From positions 1 through 23,507 of the IMG/VR virus record IMGVR_UViG_3300036985_001084: 23,507 nucleotides of DNA; one strand, 5' to 3'. Below the pieces are notes generated by a model. The model ran no database searches. It saw only the letters and a program-made list of their open reading frames with translations, and had not been told where the DNA came from. Origin of the DNA: a virus. Positions 14,568-22,187 of the stretch are shown piece after piece; positions within the stretch are counted from its first letter, which is position 1; each line of letters begins with the position of its first letter. A program made the position numbers and the translations under genes.

Positions 14568-14591
14568 ATGCCCATTCTTGCGAGTGGGCAT
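14568..14591 (+). other. RNA hairpin just before the polymerase start
   Basis: Ten-base-pair stem ATGCCCATTC / GAGTGGGCAT (one G-U pair) closed by a TTGC tetraloop. No U tract follows, so it does not look like a terminator. It contains an alternative in-frame ATG (14568) in its 5' arm and ends 6 bases before the preferred ATG 14598, so it could affect translation or mRNA processing. Confidence 0.6.
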
Positions 14592-14597
14592 TGGAAA

Positions 14598-16493
14598 ATG
14601 ATCTGGCTTGATTTAGAAACCCGCTCCACCTGTGACCTAAAAAGTCGCGGCGTCTACAACTACGCGCAAGACCTCACGACCGAGGTGCTGTGCATGAGTT
14701 ACGCCGTCGATGATGGTGAGGTGCAGACGTGGACGACAGGCCCACTACCTGACTTCACCGGCCACCGCATCATGGCGCACAACGCTGCCTTTGAACGGCT
14801 CATCTGCTGGTACGTCTTGCAGGTCAACATCCCGCTGGAGCGGTTTGTTTGCACCGCCGCGCAGGCCCGTGCCAACTGTGCGCCAGGGTCGCTGGAGGAC
14901 GTGGGCCGGTTTATGGGCGCGTCCATGAAGAAAGACCACAGGGGCGCTGCCTTGATCCGCAAGATGTGCGTCCCGCCGTTCCAGGAGTCGGCTGAGTTGA
15001 CTGCTGAGATGATCCAGTATTGTGAGCAGGACGTTCGGGCCATGAGGGCAATCAGTCAGGCCATGCGCCCCTTGTCGGACGAGGAACTGGCCGACTACCA
15101 CGTCAACGAGCGCATCAACGACCGTGGCGTCTTGGTCGATGTGCCGCTGTGCCGCGCAGCGGTGTCCTACGCCGCCACAGAGGCCACTGAGATCGCCCAA
15201 ATCGTCAATGAGGTGTCCAAGGGTGAGTTGACCTCTGTGCGGTCGCCTAAGATGCGCCAGTGGGTCTGGGACAGAGTCGGCCCCGAGGCCAGAGCGTTGA
15301 TGCAGAAGGACGACAAGGTCAGCATCGACAAGACCGTGAGAGCGAATCTACTTAATTGTGAAGGAGTACCGCCCGATGTCCAAGAAATTATCCAGTGCGC
15401 CGACGACCTGTGGGCGTCGTCGGTCGCCAAGTTCGCCCGACTCGCCCAGCTTGCCGACGTTGAGGACAGCCGAGTCCGAGGCGCCTTCGTCTTTGCCGGA
15501 GGGTCAGCTACAGGTCGTGCAAGTAGCTACGGGGCGCAAGTACACAATTTCACACGCAAATGCGCGAAAAGTCCTGATGATGTTAGGGCTGCAATGTGCC
15601 GGAATCACGCCATCGTCCCCAAGTTCGGCCAGCGAGTTACCGATGTCCTCCGGGGGATGCTACGGCCTGCACTGATCCCGGCTAAGGGCCAGCAGTTGGT
15701 AGTTGCGGATTGGTCTTCGATTGAGGCCAGGGTCAACCCTTGGTTGTCTGGTACAGGTCAGGCTAAGCTAGACGTGTTTGAGTCGGGCCTCGACCCCTAC
15801 ATCGTCAATGCCGCCGGTACTTTCCAGCGCACCTACGACGACATCAAGGCCGACTACGACCGCGACGGCGAGTCGGCCCAGCGCCAGATCGGCAAAGTAC
15901 AGGAGTTGGCCTGCGGGTTCGCTGGCGGCGTGGGCGCGTTCGCGTCGATGGCGCGCATCTACAGTGTGCGCCTGTCCGAGGCCGACTCCAAGCGCATGGT
16001 GGACGCATGGCGCCGCAACAATCAGTGGGCCGTCAACTTCTGGCAGCAGCTTGAGCAGCAGTACACCAGGGCCATGCGAAACCGGGGTCAGGAGTTCACC
16101 GCCGGGCGGGTTACCTACCTGTTCGACGGCCTGCATCTCTGGTATTCTTTGCCCTCGGGCCGGGTGCTTTGCTACCCATTTGCCCGGTTAGAGGAGGACG
16201 GTATCAGCTACGCTAAAGCAGCTTGGAAGCCTGCCCAGGACGCCAAGGAGTGGCCCCGCGCCCGGCTGTGGCGCGGTCTGGCTTGCGAGAACGTCACCCA
16301 GGCAGTTGCCAATGACCTGCTGCGCTACGCCTTACGGCAGCTCGATGGTGTGGTGCTGCACGTCCACGACGAGATCGTCGTCGAGGGTGGCAGTGAAGAG
16401 GAAGTGCGTAGGGTGATGACTGCGCCGCCAGCATGGGCCACTGGCCTGCCGCTGGCCTGTGGAATCAAGACGATGCCGCGTTACGGCAAATAA
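14598..16493 (+). CDS. DNA polymerase, family A, with 3'-5' exonuclease, 631 aa
   Basis: Replicative phage polymerase. The exonuclease domain carries D5 and E7 (WLDLETRS), HNAAFER (61-67) and YCEQD (Y141, D145). The polymerase domain has motif A VVADWSSIEAR (D371), motif B RQIGKVQELACGF (R429, K433), and motif C HVHDE (D591, E592), so both activities look intact. In motif B the position equal to E. coli Pol I residue 762 is Leu (L437), and the position equal to Tyr766 is Phe (F441). I start at ATG 14598 because homologues begin MIWLDLETRS; an in-frame ATG at 14568 lies in a hairpin and lacks a ribosome-binding site. Upstream is the candidate DNA-binding protein and downstream the primase-helicase. 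Confidence 0.93.
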   Translation: MIWLDLETRSTCDLKSRGVYNYAQDLTTEVLCMSYAVDDGEVQTWTTGPLPDFTGHRIMAHNAAFERLICWYVLQVNIPLERFVCTAAQARANCAPGSLEDVGRFMGASMKKDHRGAALIRKMCVPPFQESAELTAEMIQYCEQDVRAMRAISQAMRPLSDEELADYHVNERINDRGVLVDVPLCRAAVSYAATEATEIAQIVNEVSKGELTSVRSPKMRQWVWDRVGPEARALMQKDDKVSIDKTVRANLLNCEGVPPDVQEIIQCADDLWASSVAKFARLAQLADVEDSRVRGAFVFAGGSATGRASSYGAQVHNFTRKCAKSPDDVRAAMCRNHAIVPKFGQRVTDVLRGMLRPALIPAKGQQLVVADWSSIEARVNPWLSGTGQAKLDVFESGLDPYIVNAAGTFQRTYDDIKADYDRDGESAQRQIGKVQELACGFAGGVGAFASMARIYSVRLSEADSKRMVDAWRRNNQWAVNFWQQLEQQYTRAMRNRGQEFTAGRVTYLFDGLHLWYSLPSGRVLCYPFARLEEDGISYAKAAWKPAQDAKEWPRARLWRGLACENVTQAVANDLLRYALRQLDGVVLHVHDEIVVEGGSEEEVRRVMTAPPAWATGLPLACGIKTMPRYGK

Positions 16494-16532: not shown

Positions 16533-18809
16533 GTGCAATTTTTAGAGTTTATCACGGCTCTCGCGCCCGTGGGCGAGACAATGCTGTTTGTGCGCCAGAA
16601 ACCACAGATGCGTGGGGGCGAGATGCAGTTCCACGCCGATGGTGCGGTCAAGGCCACTTGGCCGTCGTACTTGCCCTCGCACGGCGTTCGTGCTGGCGAG
16701 GCTTGGTACGGCAACACTGCTTCGTTCATCCTCGACCGCTTTGAGGATGGCCGGGTGTCGGCCAGCGCGGCCAACTGCGAGTACTGCGCCGTCATGGTGC
16801 TGGACGACATTGGCTCCAAAAGCAAGACCCCGCCGCTGCCGCCGACGTGGATCATGGAAACCTCGGCAGGCAACTACCAGTACGGCTACGTCTTCAGCGA
16901 GCAGCCGCCCAAGGGCGAGTTCGCCGCCGCTATCAAGGCCATCGCCGCTGCGGGTTACACCGACCCCGGCGCCTGCAACCCGGTTCGCAACTTCCGACTG
17001 CCCGGGTCGGTGAACCTCAAGCCTGACAAGGCCAAGTTTGCTTCTGCCTTGGTCGAGTTCCACCCCGAGCGCGAGTTCCTGCTGGCCGACATCTGCGCCG
17101 CTCTGGACGTTGTGCCCGGCCCTACCGAGTCGGGCGGCATCCGACCGATTCGCATGGCCGACGATGGCGCCGATGACGTGCTGGTCTGGCTCTCGGGCCA
17201 GGGTCTGCTGCTCAGTCGCCCCAACGCCGAGGGCTGGGCCGGGGTCATCTGCCCCAACAACGCCGAGCATACCGACGGCAACCCCGAGGGCCGCTATATG
17301 CCCCTCAACCGGGCGTTCTGCTGTATGCACGGCCATTGTGTCGATCTGGATAGCAACACTTTTCTGGCGTGGGTCGCCGACAATGGTGGCCCCCGTCACG
17401 CCCCCGGCCTGCGCGACGACCTGATGGCCGCTCATCTTGAGTTGGCCCTTGCTAAGATCAAGCCCAGCCCCGAGTTCCCCGACGCCGCCGCCGAGGTCAT
17501 CGCCGAGGTCGAGCGCAAAGAACTAGGCCGGGTCGAGAAGTCGGGTTGGTATTCCCGCTTCGCATACCTCCAAGACGACGAGGCGTTTTTTGATATGCAA
17601 GACCGCCGCGAACTGTCGCGCAATACCTTCAACGCCCTGTTCAGACACATTAAGTGCATCTCTATTCACTCGACCGGCAAGTCGGCCCGGCGGGTCGAGG
17701 CCAGCGTCTGCTACGACGAGAACCGCCAAGCGGCTGGCGCCCGGGCCTTGGTCGGCATCACCTACGCCGCAGGCGAGTCTGTGCTGGTTAGCAAGGACGG
17801 GCTGGTGTACGGCAACCGCTGGCGCAACTCGCGCCCGGCGCCTGTGGCCTGTGACGTGAGCCGCTGGCTGCGTCACGTCGAGCGGATGCTGCCGGTCGAG
17901 TTTGAGCGTGAACACGTTCTCAACGTGATGGCCCATAAGGTGCAGTACCCAGGCCATAAGATCAACCATGCCGTGCTGTTGGGCGGCAAGCCCGGCTCCG
18001 GCAAAGATACTCTTTTTGCCCCATTTTTTTGGGCCGTCGGTGGCCCGGCCAAACTCAACTGCTCAGTGGTTAAAAACGAGGACTTGACGTCGCAGTGGGG
18101 CTACGGGCTGGAGTGCGAGGTCATGGAGATCGCCGAACTGCGTCAGGCCGAGGCCCGTGACCGCCGGGCGTTGGAGAATCATTTAAAGCCCATCATCGCG
18201 GCCCCGCCTGAGTACCTGCCGATTAACAGGAAGGGTCTGCACCCGTACTATGCGTTGAACCGGGTGCTAGTGGTCGCGTTTAGTAACGAGCGCGTGGCGA
18301 TATCGTTGCCCAGCGACGACCGCCGATGGTTCGTCGCGTGGGCCGAGGCCGGGCGCCTGCCGGAGAGCGAGGCCGTCGCCTTGTGGAATTGGTATCACCA
18401 TCGGGGCGGCTTCGCAGGCGTGGCGGCGTGGCTAACTGCGCGTGACGTATCCGCTTTTAACCCCAGCGCCCCGCCGCCTATGACCGAGGCCAAGGCTATT
18501 CTGGTCGAGGCCGGTATGTCAACCGCCGAGTCGGTGCTGGTCGAGATGCTCCGCGACCGCCGGGGGCCGTTCGCCCAGGGCGTGATCGGCTCGCCCTTTC
18601 ACGTCATCTGCGACCGGGTGCAAGGGTCGGGCGCAGCGCCGCCCGGCGTTAAGATTGTCCAGGGCGCCCTCTTCCACGCCTTGCGTGAGGCCGGTTGGCT
18701 AGATATGGGACTAGTACACTCGCGAGAGTACAACGCCAAGAAACACGTCTTCGTGGCGCCCGAATTGGTCAGCATGACTAGGTCGGAAATGCGCCGGGCC
18801 GTGGCGTGA
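16533..18809 (+). CDS. Primase-helicase (RepB-like primase plus DUF5906/D5-like ATPase), 758 aa
   Basis: GTG start with a strong AAAGGAGG 4 bases upstream. The N-terminal part resembles RepB/archaeo-eukaryotic primases: AVMVLDDIG (D91-D92), METSAGNYQYGY (108-119) and NPVRNFRLPGSVNLK (149-163). A probable zinc-binding segment follows (C240, H246, C264, C269 in ICPNNAEH...FCCMHGHC). The C-terminal half is an SF3/AAA-type helicase domain with Walker A GGKPGSGKD (K491), an acidic EVMEIAELRQ segment (529-538) as Walker B region, and VVAFSNE (580-586) as sensor 1. DUF5906-like phage helicases have this layout. It would make primers and unwind DNA for the polymerase encoded upstream. The stop codon touches the terminator of the leftward cluster. 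Confidence 0.82.
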   Translation: MQFLEFITALAPVGETMLFVRQKPQMRGGEMQFHADGAVKATWPSYLPSHGVRAGEAWYGNTASFILDRFEDGRVSASAANCEYCAVMVLDDIGSKSKTPPLPPTWIMETSAGNYQYGYVFSEQPPKGEFAAAIKAIAAAGYTDPGACNPVRNFRLPGSVNLKPDKAKFASALVEFHPEREFLLADICAALDVVPGPTESGGIRPIRMADDGADDVLVWLSGQGLLLSRPNAEGWAGVICPNNAEHTDGNPEGRYMPLNRAFCCMHGHCVDLDSNTFLAWVADNGGPRHAPGLRDDLMAAHLELALAKIKPSPEFPDAAAEVIAEVERKELGRVEKSGWYSRFAYLQDDEAFFDMQDRRELSRNTFNALFRHIKCISIHSTGKSARRVEASVCYDENRQAAGARALVGITYAAGESVLVSKDGLVYGNRWRNSRPAPVACDVSRWLRHVERMLPVEFEREHVLNVMAHKVQYPGHKINHAVLLGGKPGSGKDTLFAPFFWAVGGPAKLNCSVVKNEDLTSQWGYGLECEVMEIAELRQAEARDRRALENHLKPIIAAPPEYLPINRKGLHPYYALNRVLVVAFSNERVAISLPSDDRRWFVAWAEAGRLPESEAVALWNWYHHRGGFAGVAAWLTARDVSAFNPSAPPPMTEAKAILVEAGMSTAESVLVEMLRDRRGPFAQGVIGSPFHVICDRVQGSGAAPPGVKIVQGALFHALREAGWLDMGLVHSREYNAKKHVFVAPELVSMTRSEMRRAVA

Positions 18810-20430: not shown

Positions 20431-21180
20431 TTAGGCAACGGCCAACATGATGACCCGGCGCGCATGACCCGCAGCATGGTCTGCGATCACAATATCGCGT
20501 GCCTTGATTGATGTACCGGCGCACAATGTGCATTTAGCGCACGTCGATTTTCTACCGGCTTCGGCGCTGGCCGGGCATGATGCTTCACCGGCTTGCACAT
20601 CGACACCGATAGAAACCCGGAATACCCTCATACCTAATAGGTTAGCTTTCGCGGCTTGATCGATTGTGTCTGCACTAGCCATTACAAGCGGCGCCCATGC
20701 GTCAACGTCAAATCCTGGTGTATCCCATTGATGTGTATAGCCGCGCCGACCTAGTGCATACCGGGTGATCTGCGCCCACATTGTGGCCGGCGCGGCCGCA
20801 GGGTCTCCATATGTACCGATGCGGACTATCTTACCGGCCAGAGCGGCCGCTATTGTCGCGGGGTCTGCTTTGACGTACTGGCCGCGCCGGTAGGCTTTAT
20901 AAACTGATAGTACGCTTTTGCCTACTTGCACATAGCATGGCGATGCGCCGGTTCTGCGCGCCAGTTTAGGCCGATGCTCGCACTGGCCGCATACGCTGGC
21001 ATCGGCGCCGGTCTGCAGTGCGCGCACGGGGTTGACGTGCGAGCGGATGATGAATGATTGAACGATTGCGCCGGTCTTGGCATTTTTAGACCCGTCGATC
21101 TTGTTGATGATGACGACGATCGGCGCGCCGTCGATGGCCGATGGGCCTTCGTATGCGATGTAACCTAGAATTTTTGGCAT
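20431..21180 (-). CDS. Conserved Cys-rich phage protein (DUF7227-like), 249 aa
   Basis: First and largest gene of this leftward cluster; AAAGGAAA lies about 5 bases before ATG 21180. Recognisable stretches are GYIAYEGPSAIDGAPIVVI, SKNAKTGAIVQSF, TGADASVCGQCEHRP, CYVQVGKSV, RIGTYGDPAAAP and GYTHQW, which I recall from a phage and plasmid family listed as DUF7227 (number from memory, not checked). Seven cysteines occur in two groups: C64, C67, C82 and C202, C214, C217, C220 (SCPASAEAGRKSTCAKCTLC). They probably bind zinc or an iron-sulfur cluster. The biochemical function is not known to me. Confidence 0.75.
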   Translation of the reverse strand: MPKILGYIAYEGPSAIDGAPIVVIINKIDGSKNAKTGAIVQSFIIRSHVNPVRALQTGADASVCGQCEHRPKLARRTGASPCYVQVGKSVLSVYKAYRRGQYVKADPATIAAALAGKIVRIGTYGDPAAAPATMWAQITRYALGRRGYTHQWDTPGFDVDAWAPLVMASADTIDQAAKANLLGMRVFRVSIGVDVQAGEASCPASAEAGRKSTCAKCTLCAGTSIKARDIVIADHAAGHARRVIMLAVA

Positions 21181-21427
21181 GGTACTTTCCTTTACTTTAT
21201 TGTGAGAGGGCGAGAATTCGACCCCTTCACATATAGAGCATAAGAGAATCGTGCCAGCGCCCTGGCGCGTGCGCTAAGTACTTGATACGTAACACTATTT
21301 ACTACGTAGGGGTTTACCCTTAGAGTGTGTGTGTCGGCGTGGTGCTATTGTGGTCTATAGCGCGGGTGTGATCTTGCCCTCTGAAAAACCCTCTATGTGT
21401 GCCATGTGTGCCATACTCTTACTACTT

Positions 21428-21456
21428 TTGGTTGGGATATATATACTGTATATAAT
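21428..21456 (+). promoter_or_regulatory. Rightward promoter with consensus -10
   Basis: TATAAT at 21451-21456 is a perfect -10, and TTGGTT at 21428-21433 is a partial -35 at 17-base spacing. Transcripts would begin near 21463 and run through the repeats into terS. Confidence 0.6.
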
Positions 21457-21464
21457 AACAGTAT
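21443..21464. promoter_or_regulatory. Palindromic operator candidate over the -10
   Basis: Perfect inverted repeat ATACTGT (21443-21449) / ACAGTAT (21458-21464) with an 8-base AT spacer that contains most of the -10. Such placement is usual for repressor operators. The binding protein is unknown. Confidence 0.55.
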
Positions 21465-21600
21465 GAATAGTGTATGACTTCCACGTTTGCGGCGCGACTT
21501 CAAATCGAAAATGATGGCACACATCACCCACATCACCCACACGCATGAAAGTGTGTGCCATGTGTGCCATACAGCCATGATGACACACATGGCACACGCC

Positions 21601-21670
21601 CTGGCCGTGCTGGTGCTGGCCGTGCTGGTGCTGGTGCTGGCCGTGCTGGCCGTGTGCTGGCACACACGGC
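21601..21670 (+). repeat. CTGGCCGTG / CTGGTG tandem array and hairpin
   Basis: Two units, A (CTGGCCGTG) and B (CTGGTG), run in the order A B A B B A A from 21601 to 21654. The array ends in a hairpin, GCCGTGTG (21649-21656) / CACACGGC (21663-21670), with a 6-base loop. The units are purely noncoding as far as can be seen. Confidence 0.75.
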
Positions 21671-21762
21671 ACACGCCCTAGTGCTGCGCCCTGGCAGCGC
21701 CGAGGCAGGGGTGGCAGGGCCGAGCGGTTAGGGCCACAGCTACGGAGCGTTCGCAAACAATT

Positions 21763-21781
21763 TTTATTTTTATGGTATAAA
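21763..21781 (+). promoter_or_regulatory. Extended -10 promoter candidate next to terS
   Basis: TTTATTTTTATG (21763-21774), the same 12-mer as in the 12460 promoter, leads into TGGTATAAA (TG at 21773-21774, -10 at 21776-21781). No -35 is clear. A start near 21788 would make the terS mRNA almost leaderless. Confidence 0.4.
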
Positions 21782-21788
21782 ACGGAAC

Positions 21789-22187
21789 ATGATGTCACTG
21801 CCGTTATCTATTAGGACGCTCAAGGCGACTGAGTCGCGTTTGCAATCGGTGTACGAAGCAGCCCGGTTAGGCTTACATGGCGAGACACTGGCGCTTGCAG
21901 CCGGTATGCTGCCGCAAGAGTACCTGACGCTGTGCAACTTTGACCCGGTTGTTGGCATGGCTGCGCTCAAGGGCAAAGCCGACGGCGAACGCGAGATGGC
22001 CGAGATACTGCACAACGCAGCGCGTAACGGGGACGCCAAAGCCGCGCTAGAGATACTCAAGCATCAACACGGTTGGGTTGCCAAGCAGGCTATATCGGTC
22101 GAAGTCAACCAGCGCATCTCCATCACCCAGGCACTAGAACAAGCAGAGATGCGCGTCATAAATGCAATCGACTATCTACCAACCTGA
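21789..22187 (+). CDS. terS: Terminase small subunit, 132 aa
   Basis: The DNA-recognition subunit that marks phage DNA for packaging. The protein is all helical, with the stretches AARLGLHGETLALAAGMLPQEYLTL (about 25-49, possible HTH DNA-binding domain), EREMAEILHNAARNGDAKAALEILKHQHGWVAKQ (a common motif in this TerS group) and ISVEVNQRISITQALEQAEMRVI near the end. The length is typical. Two starts are possible, ATG 21789 or 21792, with GGAA just upstream. The large subunit gene overlaps its 3' end, which supports the assignment. Repeats directly upstream are the natural candidates for its binding site. Confidence 0.82.
   Translation: MMSLPLSIRTLKATESRLQSVYEAARLGLHGETLALAAGMLPQEYLTLCNFDPVVGMAALKGKADGEREMAEILHNAARNGDAKAALEILKHQHGWVAKQAISVEVNQRISITQALEQAEMRVINAIDYLPT

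Follow-up and report, generated by a model that had tools for sequence, protein, structure and literature searches.

A probable iteron replication origin in a phage genome, with a repeat word that follows the wing of the phage's own primase-helicase

The P4 alpha protein unites a primase, a helicase and a winged-helix domain, the last of which binds the origin repeats (PMC4234260, citing Yeo et al. 2002). For SaPI Rep and SCCmec Cch2, the C-terminal domain of the initiator helicase recognises iterons downstream of its own gene (PMC7581432). The NrS-1 primase-polymerase performs sequence-specific initiation at TTTGGTTA (PMC8718748), an 8-nt site of which the NrS-1 genome holds two copies only (PMC7102993), and in the RepA initiator of the Vibrio PLE the DNA-binding domain covaries with the origin, with domain swapping recurring (PMC8263062). 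For most uncultivated phages, no replication origin is known. We analysed a 23.5-kb virus record (IMGVR_UViG_3300036985_001084), called the window in the following, in which origin, reader and specificity residues can all be named from sequence. We consider it highly probable that the repeat region of the window is a replication origin whose 9-bp iterons would be bound by the C-terminal winged helix of the encoded primase-helicase, Prim. The best reading of its type is an iteron origin read by the phage's own primase-helicase with an unusually diversified repeat code. A literature search returned no paper describing this system, which is not proof of absence.

The repeat region and its counterparts in relatives

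The repeats are located 2.6 kb downstream of the DUF5906 primase-helicase gene, between a leftward gene block that starts with a 249-aa ORF and the rightward genes for the putative TerS and for TerL (Table 1). The region was taken as noncoding, and the long ORFs running through it in three frames look like a scarcity of stop codons. No significant match to the putative terS was found in PHROG or Pfam. The closest annotated relative is MW202483.1 (L360 in our numbering of loci), a circular Podoviridae sp. genome of 38.8 kb, the Prim of which is 50% identical and the annotations of which include a P22-like coat and portal.

Dense direct, inverted and tandem repeats in front of terS had been reported by the first-pass annotation, and every element it described is present: identical 21-bp blocks (21396-21416 and 21552-21572) lie 156 bp apart, the CTGGCCGTG/CTGGTG units are arranged as A B A B B A A, and a hairpin is formed by two arms of 18 nt each (21553-21570 and 21580-21597) around a 9-nt loop. 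The units of the main repeat do occur in both orientations, but their number had been given as six, whereas 11 units are obtained if every 9-mer that deviates from either ATGGCACAC or ATGACCCAC by no more than one mismatch is counted as an iteron. These nine-mers (GTGTGCCAT / ATGGCACAC) stand in tandem at a 9-bp period, two or three at a time, and the resulting five clusters surround an AT-rich core located between clusters 1 and 2. The window thereby shows two features of iteron origins, namely a short word repeated several times in noncoding DNA and an AT-rich element beside the copies. One exact 9-mer reaches six copies over both strands of the repeat region, where none of 2000 dinucleotide shuffles gave more than three, and three is also the highest exact 9-mer count that 287-bp stretches elsewhere on the contig attain. 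Across the whole window, the iteron word with at most one mismatch gave 12 matches versus 7.6 expected, and it is the clustering, rather than the window-wide frequency of the word, that stands out. As ssDNA, the region folds better than 200 of 200 shuffles (z -2.59), and an Rfam search returned microRNA matches at chance level only. The GC-rich CTGGCCGTG/CTGGTG array is, judged by sequence comparison, a hypervariable spacer.

Table 1. Position of the genes, protein segments and repeat elements discussed in the text.
Feature	Position	Strand	Remarks
DNA polymerase A (PolA)	14568-16493		
Prim, primase-helicase, proposed origin-binding initiator	16533..18809	+	Pfam, PHROG, structure model
C-terminal winged-helix domain of Prim, aa 664-758	18522..18806	+	AlphaFold2, mean pLDDT about 89-96
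Wing segment of Prim, aa 727-736 (LVHSREYNAK)	18711..18740	+	covaries with iteron word; strongest columns 729, 734
Leftward gene block, first gene (249-aa ORF)	20431-21180	leftward	
Iteron cluster 1, GTGTGCCAT x2 tandem	21397..21414	+	9-bp units from 21397, 21406
AT-rich core, candidate unwinding element	21431..21470	.	up to 83% AT (21440-21469)
LexA-like palindrome TACTGTATATAATAACAGTA inside AT-rich core	21444-21463		exact CTGT-N8-ACAG
Iteron cluster 2, ATGGCACAC ATCACCCAC ATCACCCAC (+ strand reading)	21514..21540	-	9-bp units from 21514, 21523, 21532
Iteron cluster 3, GTGTGCCAT x2	21553..21570	+	9-bp units from 21553, 21562
Iteron cluster 4, ATGACACAC ATGGCACAC (+ strand reading)	21580..21597	-	9-bp units from 21580, 21589; hairpin partner of cluster 3
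GC-rich tandem array CTGGCCGTG/CTGGTG	21601..21654	.	length and unit vary in nearly every relative
Iteron cluster 5, CTGGCACAC ACGGCACAC (+ strand reading)	21657..21674	-	9-bp units from 21657, 21666
Conserved block GGGCCGAGC...CACAGCTACGGAGCGTTCGCAAACAATTTTTATTTTT (also GGGCCGAGC..AGGGCCACAGCTACGGAGCGTTCGCAAACAATTTTTATTTTT)	21717..21771	.	separate from origin
Putative terS	21789-22187	rightward	named from position only
terL	from 22162 onward	rightward	

A search with Prim gave 68 loci of 55-98% identity, and 115 loci could be examined with earlier ones added. Most of the 115 hold an array of inverted and direct words, usually 1.5-3.5 kb downstream of prim. The comparison with relatives that had been recommended as a check found arrays at the same place with changed words, namely ATTGTCCACA, ATGACCCAAA, ATAGCCAACA, (A/T)TGACTACA, ATGACTCACA and GATTGTCAC; in the regions upstream of terL, the ATGGCACAC of the window is replaced by TGACTACA-type units in L130 and L143. 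Across words the plan is shared, with two tandem units, a distance of about 100-120 bp and then opposite pairs, repeated, and the architecture >> -100 bp AT- << >> << is preserved although the words differ. Units are spaced >0 >9 <118 >156 >165 <193 in the window, >90 >99 <220 <229 >280 <311 <320 in L188 (TGTCCACA), >0 >9 <126 <135 >188 <207 <216 in L199 (TGACCCAA) and >80 >89 <189 <198 >237 >246 <268 <277 in L204 (GCCAACA). Outside the arrays, origin words occur 0-3 times per 14-23 kb record. The words have the frame AT.G...ACA in common with a variable middle, ATGACCCAAA deviating at the end. The AT-rich stretch, already noted by the first-pass annotation as adjoining the repeats, belongs to this conserved architecture, and comparable AT-rich palindromes are found in most class-A relatives, not all. 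Since CTGT-N8-ACAG, kept in several relatives, is absent in some, such as L010, LexA control of the AT-rich core was rejected as a general explanation.

Some arrays showed additional traits. In MW202483.1, eleven GTTTACA/TGTAAAC words lie at the matching place (28225-28569), overlapping possibly spurious hypothetical-protein ORFs (28105-28488). A second repeat family (CACTAACTTA, AGTTAGTGAGTGCTTAC) is located near the origin in L021, L023, L030, L032, L047 and L075, and the CACTAAC words (class 4) appear to be another repeat family that confuses automatic word assignment. About 2.3-2.9 kb after prim, L190 carries ATGACCCAA and TGTCCACA words together with a ATGACCCAA-type wing, a mixed array that may represent a recent word switch.

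Prim and the covariation of its wing with the word

Prim comprises a putative N-terminal RepB-type primase domain, a DUF5906/SF3-like helicase and a C-terminal winged helix. Pfam matches were obtained to DUF5906 (8e-9) and RepB_primase (1.4e-4; at 22.2 bits below the 24.3 cutoff), and the PHROG match is DNA primase. From an AlphaFold2 model of the last 135 residues, a C-terminal winged-helix DNA-binding domain as in NrS-1/SaPI5-type initiators could be delineated, in which aa 729-736 form the wing loop between strands 723-728 and 737-741. A second model, covering aa 300-758 (mean pLDDT 74), has the NrS-1 polymerase CTR as its top match (Z 23.2, rmsd 8.8, 354 residues, 15% identity), above the SaPI5 primase-helicase (Z 17.4) and D5-type helicases, and displays an SF3/D5-like helicase fold (Foldseek E 8.5e-15 to 6k9c; VIA-align Z 23.2). 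The weak NrS-1 match of the whole-Prim profile search (E 0.15) was settled by this structure comparison. For the C-terminal domain alone, a profile search against the PDB gave no significant match and Foldseek no confident one; generic winged helices and the NrS-1 C-terminal region are among the matches listed for it, and the absence of the P4 alpha origin-binding domain among these listed matches excludes nothing.

Array k-mer spectra were compared with residue identity after removal of overall Prim relatedness (partial r), in an unbiased scan that covered the whole of Prim with 247 twelve-column windows and included 65 distinct loci. The peak lies at aa 725-736, with a partial r of 0.437 compared to a family-wise maximum of 0.161 in 1000 permutations. 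The top eleven scan windows are all inside aa 716-757, the best one outside the C-terminus reaching 0.202, and the signal falls from the wing towards the very 3' end of prim. Columns 734 (0.481) and 729 (0.476) lead among single residues. On the same pairs, the Prim tail gave 0.34-0.46 versus 0.084 for the putative TerS, 0.002 for TerL and 0.018 for PolA.

With arrays grouped in an unsupervised manner, the H729...N734 wing pairs with ATGGCACAC in 19 of 19 loci, H729 being found nowhere else. T/M729 pairs with TGACTACA (4/4 loci, nowhere else, three changes on the tree) and K729...D/E734 with ATTGTCCACA (12/12); automatic clustering left out six more loci with K729 and D/E734, and L023, which has such a wing, revealed four ATTGTCCACA-type words on re-inspection. 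The wing RVAS[GAS]D.[QP] is accompanied by ATGACCCAA in 8 loci and RL[AG]SRE[YH][AGQ] by ATAGCCAACA in 5 loci. Several wings and arrays, among them those of L194, L340, L324 and MW202483.1, match no learned class. On a tree built from the remainder of Prim, 20 changes of word class are counted, and the identical word with the identical two wing residues recurs in distant Prim backgrounds.

It should be noted that the loci are related and pair counts are not independent, and that independent pairs by themselves are not numerous enough to reach significance. Since a partial Mantel test on related sequences overstates certainty, the argument is carried by the out-of-sample test and by matched pairs. 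In 65 further loci, none of which had been used in the scan, actual array similarity was 0.758 for the locus with the nearest wing, 0.628 for the nearest Prim background and 0.112 for a random locus. Where the two predictions conflicted (18 of the 65), the wing scored 0.557 versus 0.073 for the background and was the better predictor in 13 cases, the background in 2. Among matched pairs, L349 and L084 are identical over aa 621-720 and again in the last residues, with aa 721-752 (the wing and the next helix) changed, and their arrays consist of ATTGTCCACA versus ATGACCCAAA. L284/L084, L143/L174, L232/L081 and L191/L188 show the same behaviour. Since the residues flanking the changed block are identical in L349 and L084, linkage to the 3' end is not in itself a sufficient explanation, and the matched-pair pattern concentrates the change in the domain that would contact DNA. 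The word is predicted by the wing loop aa 727-736 of Prim, and array architecture is conserved while words change.

From these sequence relations we infer Prim-iteron binding, melting and origin firing as follows. The winged helix would bind the nine-mers as double-stranded DNA, the AT-rich core would melt, and hexameric Prim would load, unwind and prime synthesis for PolA. The conserved helix aa 710-720 probably reads the common frame AT.G...ACA and the wing the variable middle. We are slightly inclined to go further and propose a switchable origin code, in which few wing residues (chiefly 729 and 734) choose the 9-mer word and compatibility types would be predictable from the protein, the roughly 20 changes within one primase tree perhaps reflecting pressure from co-infecting phages, satellites or origin-targeting nucleases.

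Alternative roles of the repeats

The first-pass annotation had stated that none of the ordinary features explains the repeats, which is wrong, as an iteron origin does explain them. Of the two roles it had suggested, that of an iteron origin is strongly supported by the covariation of the words with the wing in the C-terminal domain of Prim, although the cumulative GC skew, named as a check for this role, displayed no clear turn at the array (two near-complete contigs, MW202483.1). The other role, a packaging recognition site (pac or cosB) for the small terminase, is suggested by the position of the repeats directly before the putative terS and terL, and TerS rings of several phages bind direct repeats. 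Here, however, word similarity is unrelated to the identity of the putative TerS once the Prim background is removed (0.084). L085 and L009 share a near-identical TerS-A with L143 and have TGCAC words versus TGACTACA, while in class-B phages the GTGCAA words stay unchanged over TerS-B proteins of 55-100% identity. Contig ends do not pile up either, since 2 of the 56 contigs holding the nearby conserved block start within 50 bp upstream of it, which is no enrichment, and contigs of 36-39 kb terminate at varied distances. The packaging role is therefore unsupported, and we regard it as very unlikely.

A better candidate for a packaging signal (cos/pac) is the conserved block itself, for which a role as terL leader is equally possible. 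Its exact pattern is found in 56 contigs and a loose pattern in 34 of 80 terL loci, and it is conserved in terL relatives regardless of iteron, helicase or terS type, being located before terS in the group of the window and between terS and terL in class-B phages, which combine the same TerL with another helicase and GTGCAA words. L007 and L136 have a TerL about 98-99% identical to that of the window and a wholly different replication module (Toprim/RepA-like helicase); together with their different terS and GTGCAA words, this amounts to whole-module exchange around a near-constant terL. L009 and L085 are hybrids carrying two terS types, the conserved block being preceded by TerS-B and followed by TerS-A.

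The covariation identifies the reader of the words, not their purpose, and the repeats could be operators through which divergent early promoters are regulated, by Prim or by another phage protein, without an origin role. The intergenic position is indeed divergent, and the AT-rich core contains TTGGTT-17-TATAAT as well as the LexA-like CTGT-N8-ACAG. We nevertheless consider this unlikely, as eleven sites in five clusters with an AT-rich core between them go far beyond a simple operator, the reader of the words has a primase-helicase fold and no sigma-70 consensus passed the promoter scan; origin and autoregulation can coexist. It is, finally, highly improbable that the covariation is a by-product of recombination, with the 3' end of prim and the array travelling as a cassette without mutual binding. 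It is true that no part of prim is closer to the array than the one that contains the wing, and the 20 word-class changes on the background tree leave no doubt that exchange takes place. However, the signal has its maximum at the wing and weakens towards the very 3' end, residues flanking the changed block are identical or nearly so in L349/L084 and L284/L084, and loci of distant backgrounds share a word together with its two wing residues.

Relation to described initiators

An iteron origin read by Prim would supply a code for DNA recognition by the wing of a winged helix, for which dozens of natural variants are already at hand for testing, and could predict which phages and satellites share or steal each other's replication machinery. 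It also cautions that repeats before terS are not necessarily packaging sites.

Nitratiruptor phage NrS-1 provides the best fold match over helicase and C-terminal domain; however, no iteron array is described there, and its recognition is assigned to a helix bundle domain on ssDNA. With SaPI Rep / PriRep1 and Cch2, the window shares the location of iterons downstream of the initiator gene, besides the SaPI5 fold match (Z 17.4). In contrast to SaPI and SCCmec, leftward genes separate the array from the initiator gene, which is 2.6 kb away, and specificity resides in a short wing, the word classes numbering eight or more. Like P4 alpha, Prim would unite primase, helicase and a C-terminal winged helix and be accompanied by an iteron origin, but P4 has a Toprim primase where the N-terminal part of Prim is RepB/AEP-like, and here many words are found within one phage group. 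The Vibrio PLE differs in its unrelated initiator (RepA_N domain), its semi-palindromic iterons of about 30 bp and its two replicon groups, yet displays the same kind of co-switching between initiator and origin as observed here.
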